Source of the DNA: an uncultured Clostridia bacterium
Lineage (GTDB): Bacteria > Bacillota > Clostridia > Christensenellales > Christensenellaceae
Length of the DNA: 43,120 bases
Assembly (NCBI GenBank): GCA_944347775.1
Contig: CALVMT010000001.1
Span: 1-43,120, forward strand
Direction of reading: 5' to 3'
How positions within the stretch are numbered: position 1 is the first letter of the stretch; each line of letters opens with the position of its first letter. Below, piece by piece: positions 5,455-41,209 of the stretch. The notes below the pieces were generated by a model. The model saw only the letters and a list, made by a program, of their open reading frames with translations. It was not told where the DNA came from and made no database searches. Position numbers and translations under genes: made by a program.

Positions 5455-5472
5455 ATAAATAATTTAAAATTT

Positions 5473-5554
5473 AACGGGGAGCTTGCGCAGCGGGCTGAGA
5501 GGGAAATTTTTATTCCGACCCATAACCTGATTTGGATAATGCCAACGTAGGTCC
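5473..5554 (+). promoter_or_regulatory. TPP riboswitch aptamer upstream of thiD
   Basis: Thi-box landmarks in order: GGGGAGC, GGCTGAGAGGG, GACCCATAACCTGATTTGGA, TAATGCCAACGTAGG, then a T run. The thiD ribosome binding site (GGAGG) lies about 80 bases downstream. I see no strong separate terminator stem, so control may be by termination at the T run after P1 or at translation level. Confidence 0.92.
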
Positions 5555-5647
5555 TTTTTTATATTATATTAATTTTTCCCCTCTATACCTTCCAACAACT
5601 AACCGCTGAATTTTTATTTATATAACCATATCTTTCCGGAGGCTTTT

Positions 5648-33132: not shown

Positions 33133-33161
33133 TTGCTTTTCATTGATAAAAAGTTTATAAT
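33133..33161 (+). promoter_or_regulatory. promoter of the corA leader
   Basis: TTGCTT (33133-33138), 17-base spacer, TATAAT (33156-33161). Predicted transcript start near 33168, which leaves a leader of about 160 bases before corA. Confidence 0.75.
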
Positions 33162-33211
33162 TTTTATATATGCTCAAACAAAGCAAGTTTTAAGTAAACG
33201 AGGTAAAAAGT

Positions 33212-33301
33212 TTGGATACAGATCCTTTAGATAAGCGCAATTTTTCTTTGGGCTTTACAATGCGATTAATAAATAAAGCAGCGGGCTGTATCTTATATTA
33301 A
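33212..33301 (+). CDS. candidate corA leader peptide, 29 aa
   Basis: A TTG start with GAGG eight bases upstream (33200-33203) opens 29 codons: Met-Asp-Thr-Asp-Pro-Leu-Asp-Lys-Arg at the N-terminus, then a mixed hydrophobic/basic part ending GCILY and TAA. The stop is in the loop of the first of two competing hairpins just before corA. The acidic residues plus proline immediately after the start, followed by basic residues, recall the MgtL leader peptide of enterobacterial mgtA, whose acidic/proline start destabilises ribosomes at low magnesium. There is no sequence homology to MgtL; the parallel is in architecture. Could be a chance ORF. Confidence 0.5.
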   Translation: MDTDPLDKRNFSLGFTMRLINKAAGCILY

Positions 33302-33332
33302 AGCCCGCATACGGAAAGCGGGTGTTTTTTTT
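33281..33332 (+). promoter_or_regulatory. attenuator: mutually exclusive hairpins in front of corA
   Basis: Segment 1 GCGGGCT (33281-33287) pairs with segment 2 AGCCCGC (33302-33308), 7 bp. Segment 2 CCCGC (33304-33308) can instead pair with segment 3 GCGGG (33318-33322), followed after two bases by eight T residues (33325-33332), an intrinsic terminator. The two folds share segment 2. Segment 1 lies within the leader ORF and the terminator merges into the corA start region, so either transcription or translation of corA could be controlled. Confidence 0.65.
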
Positions 33333-34266
33333 GGTTAAAATTATTTCTACAACAACAGGTGATATGCGTCAGCTTAACACTATCGAGCCAGGTTGTTGGG
33401 TACATTTGGGTAATCCTTCCGATGAGGAAATTTTTGATATCGCTGATCAACTGAAAATTGATGCTGAATTTTTGCGCGATCCTCTTGACGAAGAAGAATC
33501 TGCCCGAATCGACTACGAAGACAATATTAATATTATTATTGTTGACATTCCCCATATTGTTCCTACAAATGATGGATTTTCTTACGAAACTATTCCTCTT
33601 GGTATATTTATTACCGAACAAAACATCATCACTGTCTGTTTAGATGAAAATGCTTTGGTTGAGGATTTTTGGAATAATCGAATTAAAGGGTTTGACACAG
33701 CGAAAAAAACTCGCTTCTTATTGCAAATCCTATATCGTAATGCGACAAAATATCTACGGTATTTACGTATGATTGATAAAGCTTCGGATCGATTGGAAAG
33801 TATTTTGCATAAATCTATGCGTAACCGTGAGCTTATTCAAATGTTGCGTTTAAGCAAATCACTTGTCTATTTTTCTACATCCTTGAAAGCAAATGAAGTA
33901 ATTTTGGAAAAAATTATGCGTAGCCACAATATAATTAAATATGAGGCTGATTCCGACCTTCTTGAGGATGTTATTATTGAAAATAAACAGGCAATTGAAA
34001 TGGCCGGTATTTACATGGAAATTTTGTCCGGAACAATGGACGCATTTGCTTCATTAGTATCTAATAATTTGAATATTGTCATGAAATTCTTAGCATCTAT
34101 GACCATCGTTATGGCTATCCCCTCTATTTTTTCCGGATTCTGGGGAATGAATTTTGAGCAGATGCCATTTTTGGGTAGTCCGGCAGGGTTTTATATTGTT
34201 TTAGGCATTGCTATGGCGGCAACCGCATTAGTAGCTGCAATCTTTTGGAAAAAGAAAATGTTTTAA
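33331..34266 (+). CDS. corA: CorA-type magnesium/divalent cation channel
   Basis: CorA family Mg uptake channel, 311 aa from TTG 33331. Large cytosolic N-domain beginning VKIISTTTGD with GCWVHLGNPSDEEI, a long helical stalk (about 140-240), and two C-terminal transmembrane helices (about 250-270 and 282-305) with the signature GMNF loop in SGFWGMNFEQMP. The positively charged end KKKMF is typical. Start is uncertain: GTG 33322 and TTG 33331 are both in frame, neither with a strong ribosome site, because the region is part of the attenuator. Probably a separate unit from murA, although no strong terminator is seen before murA. Confidence 0.92.
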   Translation: MVKIISTTTGDMRQLNTIEPGCWVHLGNPSDEEIFDIADQLKIDAEFLRDPLDEEESARIDYEDNINIIIVDIPHIVPTNDGFSYETIPLGIFITEQNIITVCLDENALVEDFWNNRIKGFDTAKKTRFLLQILYRNATKYLRYLRMIDKASDRLESILHKSMRNRELIQMLRLSKSLVYFSTSLKANEVILEKIMRSHNIIKYEADSDLLEDVIIENKQAIEMAGIYMEILSGTMDAFASLVSNNLNIVMKFLASMTIVMAIPSIFSGFWGMNFEQMPFLGSPAGFYIVLGIAMAATALVAAIFWKKKMF

Positions 34267-40861: not shown

Positions 40862-40935
40862 TGGCAGCCGAACTAGGATTCGAACCTAGAAAATACGAGT
40901 CAGAGTCGTAGGTGTTACCGTTACACTATTCGGCT
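40862..40935 (-). tRNA. tRNA-Gln (anticodon CUG)
   Basis: Minus-strand cloverleaf: acceptor AGCCGAA/TTCGGCT, discriminator G, encoded CCA; anticodon stem TACGA/TCGTA with loop CTCTGAC giving CUG; T arm CTAGG-TTCGAAT-CCTAG. 74 nt. Last RNA of a tRNA-Val / 6S / tRNA-Gln cluster. Confidence 0.95.
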
Positions 40936-40956
40936 ATCTTTATAATTGACAAAAAC

Positions 40957-41131
40957 TGGGGCCCAGGAGTGTCGTCTGCTTCGTTTTGTAACCCGCCTCC
41001 CGGCAGGTGGGTAATCTGCTCATATCTTCGTGCTTCCCACTCGTAATGGGCATGCATACCTAATATGCAAGACGCGAAAACCCTTATACAAATTGTGGGT
41101 CTAAAATCAAAGCATAACCAGCACCCCAGGT
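40957..41131 (-). ncRNA. ssrS: 6S RNA
   Basis: About 175 nt regulator that binds the vegetative RNA polymerase holoenzyme by mimicking an open promoter. On the minus strand the ends pair (CC.GGGGTG with CACTCC.GG). Near the apex the family hallmark is present: GCATG, a CCCA/TGGG hairpin, then AAGC. GACGACAC lies in the 3' part, similar to the E. coli molecule. An extra 8-bp hairpin ACCCACCT/AGGCGGGT is in the 3' arm. Exact ends are estimated. It starts one or two bases after the tRNA-Val CCA and ends about 20 bases before tRNA-Gln. Confidence 0.82.
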
Positions 41132-41132
41132 T

Positions 41133-41209
<77 letters not shown>

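Follow-up and report, generated by a model that had tools for sequence, protein, structure and literature searches.

The corA gene of an uncultured Clostridia bacterium (family Christensenellaceae) probably carries a cis-acting leader-peptide Mg2+ sensor, which would switch between two mutually exclusive RNA pairings, segments 1:2 and segments 2:3, at the corA Shine–Dalgarno (SD) sequence. The draft genome totals 2.05 Mb; the leader ORF and a promoter-like site lie on its contig 1, in the 43,120-nucleotide stretch that was analyzed as a whole and is referred to here as the window. As read from the DNA, the proposal builds on a short ORF with its SD, a conserved peptide motif at its start, a link to the Mg transporter genes corA and mgtE, tandem arrangements with M-box riboswitches, and an excess of three-way pairing.

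All features of the locus are on the forward (+) strand. The promoter-like sequence, TTGCTT-N17-TATAAT, occupies positions 33133–33161 (TTGCTT at 33133–33138 and TATAAT at 33156–33161) and was also found 5′ of the leader in all three relatives of the same genus with a CorA match (L002–L004). The leader SD, GAGG (33200–33203), is located 8 nt before the TTG at position 33212, and GAGGTA precedes the leader in L002, L003, and L004 too. The leader ORF MDTDPLDKRNFSLGFTMRLINKAAGCILY (33212–33301) consists of 29 codons and a TAA stop codon, and its first five codons (33212–33226) encode the conserved start M-D-x-D-P, the acidic residues of which occupy the same positions as Glu2 and Asp4 in the EPDP start of MgtL. 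Codons 24–26 constitute segment 1, GCGGGCT (33281–33287), which pairs with segment 2, AGCCCGC (33302–33308). Segment 2 was recognized by sequence reading, folding, and the helix scan as the shared arm and as an anti-SD, and its GCCCGC (33303–33308) pairs with the GCGGGT at 33318–33323 in segment 3, GCGGGTG (33318–33324), the 3′ arm of the 2:3 hairpin. A run of eight T residues (33325–33332) follows segment 3, forming a possible intrinsic terminator. The helix scan also identified an alternative segment 1, TGGGCTTTA (33249–33257), which can pair with 33299–33307. A scan for sigma-70 and terminator consensus sequences called neither the leader promoter nor the 2:3 hairpin; on reading of the sequence, the 29-codon TTG ORF, its SD, the hairpins with a shared arm, and the T-run described in the original prediction are all real.

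The gene that follows (33331–34266) begins with TTG, encodes a protein starting with MVKIISTTTG, and belongs to the CorA family of Mg transporters (PF01544, 178.8 bits against a cut-off of 27); with the stricter NCBIfam corA model, TIGR00383, it scored 117.1 bits, under the cut-off of 200.75. Its named near relatives come from uncultured Clostridia and Christensenella species. The TTG at 33331 (MVKIISTT) is most likely the start of corA, judging from relatives that start with MIKIISTV or with MIKI- or MIRI-type sequences. With this start, the 3′ arm of the presumed terminator would double as the corA SD (GGGTG, 33320–33324), and the T-run would be the spacer between the SD and the start codon. 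For a hairpin of its length, 1:2 is strong (−14.5 kcal/mol, z = −4.0; equaled by none of 200 shuffles), and 2:3, with 6 bp in the stem and 9 nt in the loop, is modest (−10.0 kcal/mol, z = −1.6; equaled by 16 of 200). Folding of the whole leader region gave z = −1.4, with 16 of 200 shuffles as good, and the switch score of the locus in the helix scan was matched by none of 200 shuffles. Beside segment 1, CTGTATC (33286–33292) can pair with GATACAG (33215–33221) at the start of the leader ORF; a 120-nt fold that included this pairing favored the 2:3 hairpin, a hint of a fourth segment. Elsewhere in the window, a TPP riboswitch was detected at 5465–5571 (+), with a score exactly equal to its gathering score, as were a 6S RNA at 40956–41135 (−) and two tRNAs at 40865–40935 and 41136–41209 (−).

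To place the leader in a wider context, 110 corA loci were collected, from which five duplicates (L031–L035) and three loci with weak CorA matches (L028–L030) were removed, leaving 102. The SD-preceded short ORFs of each locus were listed, and residue pairs at positions 2–8 were counted with Asp and Glu pooled. The commonest pair was an acidic residue at position 2 with Pro at position 5. SD-preceded short ORFs of the form M-[DE]-x-x-P occurred in 55 of the 102 corA upstream regions, several of which share a genus, and M-[DE]-x-[DE]-P leaders in 31. In 30 dinucleotide shuffles, the corresponding numbers were 0.33 on average (maximum 2) and 0; on the antisense strand, they were 1 and 0; and in the region further upstream, the leader motif was found once in 99 cases. 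The motif is not universal at corA: 47 of the 102 loci lacked it, and those inspected mostly had a promoter near the gene.

The three genomes of the same genus with a CorA match have leaders that begin with MDTDPL, MDTDPL, and MDGDPY behind GAGGTA and then diverge; in three further genomes of this genus, a CorA match was absent. The leader start, the SD, and the D-x-D-P motif are found again in other genera and families, as conservation of the predicted leader would require, with examples including MDADPKRT (Christensenella), MDADPYS, MEGDPKPR, MDSDP, MDEVP (Sedimentibacter), and MEAGP. Across 50 distinct leaders, the information content drops from position 6 onward. Because the acidic residue at position 2 and Pro at position 5 were filter criteria, their own frequency among these leaders is no evidence, whereas the loose filter did not demand position 4, which was Asp or Glu in 26 of the 50. 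Asp and Glu interchange at position 2 and the codons vary among leaders, a pattern suggesting that the peptide is under selection. The Pro5 codon was CCT in 37 of the 50. Weakly acidic leaders, such as MDAGP, MESGP, and MDSSP, also occur and are explained less well by a drop-off model.

Pattern searches were also started from the leader instead of the gene. The strict pattern, GAGG-N6-10-DTG-GAY-NCN-GAY-CC, was run over 248 genomes of the order and matched in 31, at one place each, including a single place in this 2.05 Mb draft genome; its reversed control matched in 6 of the 248. At 30 of the 31 places (all except that in G061), the neighborhood was examined, and 25 of the 30 preceded CorA, with the CorA alignment beginning 97–253 nt past the leader start. 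Three of the 30, all in one genus, coded for the N-terminal end of a CNNM-type protein (domain search on L114), and two appear fortuitous, spanning other ORFs. When 398 genomes of the phylum were searched with a looser pattern, 106 hits were obtained, or 104 sites after removal of two nested duplicates; its reversed control matched in about 53 of the 398 genomes. According to tblastn, 39 of the 104 sites precede mgtE (27) or corA (12). At the other 65, no CorA, MgtE, or CNNM was found, and several of the sites inspected lie inside other reading frames or coincide with their beginnings. Typing of eight proteins against Pfam and NCBIfam gave five MgtE and one further MgtE, one CNNM, and the CorA of the window. 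CorA and MgtE are unrelated proteins that share a role in Mg uptake, and the occurrence of the same kind of leader before both, in some cases behind an M-box, speaks for the main idea of the original prediction, an MgtL-like acidic/proline leader before corA that would act in Mg control.

Among 30 MgtE loci selected for their Pfam scores, 8 also had the loose motif, as did 7 of the 30 best-scoring CorA loci of the phylum; two of these seven share a genus, and one had already been found as L165. The 30-locus PF01544 sample appears to contain mainly CorA of another type, judging from the N-termini and the higher Pfam scores, and leaders such as MDGGP, MDPIP, MDGLP, MDPVP, and MEPIP were seen at CorA genes of this appearance (L260, L261, L270, L274, L276, and L278). 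At L168 and L169, the leader lies 5′ of an mgtE gene whose product has a PRC-barrel domain at its N-terminus (domain search on L168). In the genus with CNNM matches, the CNNM-type protein (PF01595 in L114) begins with MDADPSSIP after GAGGTGG in 9 of 12 genomes (L114, L115, L116, and L284–L289). By eye, the DNA of these loci is nearly invariant from the SD to about codon 10, and later codons drift. In these loci, the protein itself seems to begin with the leader motif, an arrangement that would suit an exporter whose synthesis falls when Mg is low. CNNM proteins are capable of Mg export, as in the case of MpfA of Staphylococcus aureus.

Searches with the M-box model RF00380 at its gathering score gave no match in the window or at this corA locus (L001). 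One M-box was found in this genome, 5′ of the gene for an 890-amino-acid Mg P-type ATPase (TIGR01524), and a search for MgtE in the genome found none. The description of this leader as a magnesium sensor built without an M-box thus holds at this corA gene, but not for the genome, with its M-box at the ATPase gene, nor for the tandems found elsewhere. The M-box scan covered 29 of the 55 corA-leader loci and 14 of the 27 mgtE-leader loci found by pattern. On the same strand, 58–240 nt before the leader, an M-box was present in 6 of the 29 corA-leader loci (L017, L041, L045, L047, L089, and L100). M-boxes also preceded the leader, on the same strand and within this range of distances, in 7 of the 14 mgtE-leader loci (L161, L162, L163, L168, L169, L178, and L184), some of the others containing little upstream DNA, and a partial M-box lay before L191, one of six further corA loci. 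A c-di-GMP-II riboswitch was observed near the M-box, leader, and mgtE of L163 (positions 1719–1801, + strand), on the strand opposite to them. In the MgtE sample, the M-box was no commoner with the leader (2 of 8, L216 and L220, again on the same strand within 58–240 nt, the leader of L216 being a doubtful 60-residue ORF) than without it (3 of 14). One of 17 scanned corA loci without the motif also had an M-box; together with the three mgtE loci, this indicates that riboswitch and leader neither exclude nor require each other.

Alternative pairing was quantified with a switch score, given to the best combination of two helices that cannot coexist: one joins a segment around or past the stop codon to the target SD, the other joins the same segment to sequence further upstream. 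The gap limits admitted 51 of the 55 leader loci to this test and 53 to the folding test; target starts were reviewed by hand for six loci, five of which were changed, and were assigned by script for the others. With 200 shuffles per locus, the score reached p ≤ 0.05 in 28 of the 51 corA-leader loci (median 0.025), not all of which are independent, against 4 of 44 pseudo-leaders placed in leaderless corA loci (median 0.51). Among the further leader loci, 15 of 18 were entered, 11 of the 15 being mgtE loci, and 7 of the 15 reached the same level (median 0.08). The best 2:3 helix was significant (p ≤ 0.05) in 25 of the 51 leader loci. The pairing sequences differ by species and the scheme stays, as in L002, where CGCCCGCUUU/AAAGCGGGUG is combined with CAAAGCGG/CCGCUUUG, or L040, where a 16-bp helix over the SD competes with a 14-bp alternative. 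The alternative pairing foreseen in the original prediction is therefore conserved in form. Segment 1 lay wholly inside the ORF in 24 of the 28 significant loci, a proportion partly imposed by the design of the scan, which sought segment 1 only up to just behind the stop codon. Two findings tell against a simple model. In 15 of the 28, fewer than 9 nt separate the stop codon from segment 2, which is then within reach of a terminating ribosome. Equilibrium folding of two ribosome states gave a near-null result: drop-off left the SD more exposed in 25 of 53 loci, with a mean difference between the states of −0.02 versus −0.07 in shuffles (p = 0.035), and in the completed state the SD was more paired than in shuffles (unpaired fraction 0.35 versus 0.45).

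Taken at its most probable, the leader would work as follows. Ribosomes would start the leader ORF and meet Asp2-x-Asp4-Pro5 with a nascent chain of only a few residues. At low Mg2+, the ribosome would become unstable there and drop off (or stall), so that segment 1, toward the 3′ end of the ORF, would remain available for pairing with segment 2 behind the stop codon; with 1:2 formed, segment 2 could not pair with the corA SD in segment 3, and corA would be translated. When Mg2+ is ample, ribosomes would run through the ORF and keep segment 1 unpaired, so that 2:3 hides the SD. Here and in one relative, transcription may also end at the 2:3 hairpin, which is followed by U residues. We infer the drop-off, the response to Mg, the direction of the switch, and the level of its output, translation or transcription, from these patterns; for the direction, we draw on homeostasis and on the parallels with MgtL and MgtQ. 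A U-run behind segment 3 was found in only 2 of the 55 leader loci, here (T8) and in L003 (T6), which makes SD occlusion the likelier common output and the terminator a local feature. The earlier reading is thus partly supported: transcription termination is not supported as the general output, given the rarity of U-runs and the frequency of pairing over the target SD, and its notion that a ribosome at the stop codon leaves the terminator free conflicts with the position of segment 2, which begins directly behind the stop codon, so that a ribosome parked there would cover segments 1 and 2 alike.

The main rival to drop-off is arrest at Pro5, in which the short M-D-x-D-P chain would stall the ribosome stably, perhaps in dependence on EF-P or an ABC-F protein, and leave segment 1 free for segment 2; in that case, the device could be sensing Mg2+ or the condition of the ribosome. 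The low-acid leaders MDAGP and MESGP keep Pro5, the preference for CCT at this codon would be in keeping with arrest, and EttA is described as acting on MgtL (PMC11282234). Pro5 was itself a search criterion, however, the acidic residues at position 2 and often 4 match the destabilizing positions of MgtL, and, according to the MgtQ study (PMC8092293), ribosomes are not known to stall at one Pro codon alone; we consider arrest possible, at a probability well below that of the drop-off-based sensor. Slightly less probable still is a classical transcription attenuator, in which translation of the leader would choose between antiterminator 1:2 and intrinsic terminator 2:3 before corA. The −10 kcal/mol hairpin and T8 found here, with the T6 of L003, suit such a device, but the stem and loop are modest, U-runs are confined to these two loci, and helices over the SD are frequent.

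The leader could also be a plain upstream ORF with translational coupling, its finishing ribosome covering segment 2 and opening the corA SD while sensing nothing. The closeness of segment 2 to the stop codon in about half of the significant switch loci agrees with this, but the peptide motif, the concentration at Mg transporter genes, and the M-box tandems would go unexplained, and if translation were aborted at low Mg, the importers would be switched off just when needed; we regard it as improbable. Amino-acid attenuators usually have their control codons beside segment 1. An attenuator sensing charged tRNA-Asp or tRNA-Pro would account for the identity of the conserved codons, but these are at the start of the ORF, far from segment 1, Asp and Glu interchange, and the targets are two unrelated families of Mg importers, some behind an M-box, instead of genes for making or taking up the amino acid, so this explanation was rejected as very unlikely. 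Chance co-occurrence of an ORF and hairpins was likewise rejected, with hardly any probability left to it: the whole-region fold is only mildly better than shuffles, but the motif is far more frequent than in shuffles, the strict pattern is linked to CorA, switches are in excess, and sites before mgtE and corA recur.

Against this background, the reading preferred here, a Mg sensor acting through ribosome drop-off, can be set beside known systems. Mg2+ sensing through ribosome stability has been described for the enterobacterial leaders MgtL (PMC11282234) and MgtQ (PMC8092293). Glu2 and Asp4 of the MgtL EPDP start are reported to destabilize the ribosome, an effect removed by Gln or Asn at these positions (PMC11282234) and counteracted by Mg2+ (PMC11282234, PMC11552253). 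Like MgtL, which precedes mgtA in Escherichia coli and Salmonella, the present leader is a short ORF before a Mg importer gene, with an acidic residue at position 2 and often at position 4, here followed by Pro5. It differs in its phylum, in its targets CorA and MgtE, in the rarity of Pro3 (1 of 50 leaders), and in the mapped alternative, which is SD occlusion or an intrinsic terminator in place of the Rho-dependent termination described for MgtL. Since only five residues are shared, common descent with MgtL cannot be shown. MgtL proper was ruled out as an identification, because the target is corA (PF01544), not the mgtA P-type ATPase gene.

In MgtQ of Salmonella, Asp2 and Glu5 are reported to help free the hidden SD of mgtB (PMC8092293). 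The likeness lies in the acidic residues of a short ORF, the alternative stems, and the hidden SD of a transporter gene; as described, MgtQ differs in having 8 codons, in its place within an operon (the mgtC–mgtB intergenic region of Salmonella and its relatives), in its target mgtB, in stems 1:2 and 3:4 opposed to 2:3 where three segments are found here, and in that translation of mgtQ itself is required. CorL of E. coli and Salmonella is likewise a short UUG-start ORF before corA, the translation of which is reported to be inverse to corA expression, but compared with MgtL it is described as poorer in acidic and proline residues, and Rho is reported to be involved (PMC11552253). The M-box (ykoK, RF00380) resembles the leader as a 5′ element of Mg transporter genes, with which it stands in tandem at several of them, but it is an RNA aptamer and is absent at this corA gene. 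In eukaryotes, TRPM7 mRNA reportedly carries Mg-sensitive upstream ORFs, again before a Mg channel gene. With MgtL and MgtQ, the present leaders share an SD-preceded short ORF at a Mg transporter gene, conserved acidic and Pro residues within the first five codons, and alternative RNA structures that tie the leader to its target, notwithstanding the near-null folding of ribosome states. We therefore suggest that the leader works like MgtL and MgtQ without being MgtL, in another phylum and on other targets, and that it probably belongs to an MgtL/MgtQ-like family that arose convergently in Bacillota.

Within the open-access literature, to which the search was limited and which leaves out most subscription papers and bioRxiv, no description of leaders of this kind in Bacillota was found, and a Mg sensor of this type is apparently undescribed. 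A broader proposal, to which we give even chances, is that Bacillota own a wide, independently evolved class of nascent-peptide Mg sensors, the M-[DE]-x-[DE/G]-P leaders. Such a class would control the unrelated CorA and MgtE mainly by SD occlusion and, stacked behind M-boxes, would provide a second measure of Mg, based on the ribosome. In one genus, it would have turned into the N-terminal end of a CNNM-type Mg exporter, and the same abortion would there reduce export under Mg scarcity. The tandems pose the question of why a ribosome-based and an RNA-based Mg sensor should reside on one mRNA. Should Bacillota have a conserved counterpart of MgtL and MgtQ, at other transporter genes and next to the M-box, dozens of natural variants would be at hand from which to learn which early residues destabilize ribosomes, and gauging Mg2+ by how stable a translating ribosome is would become a general, repeatedly evolved principle.
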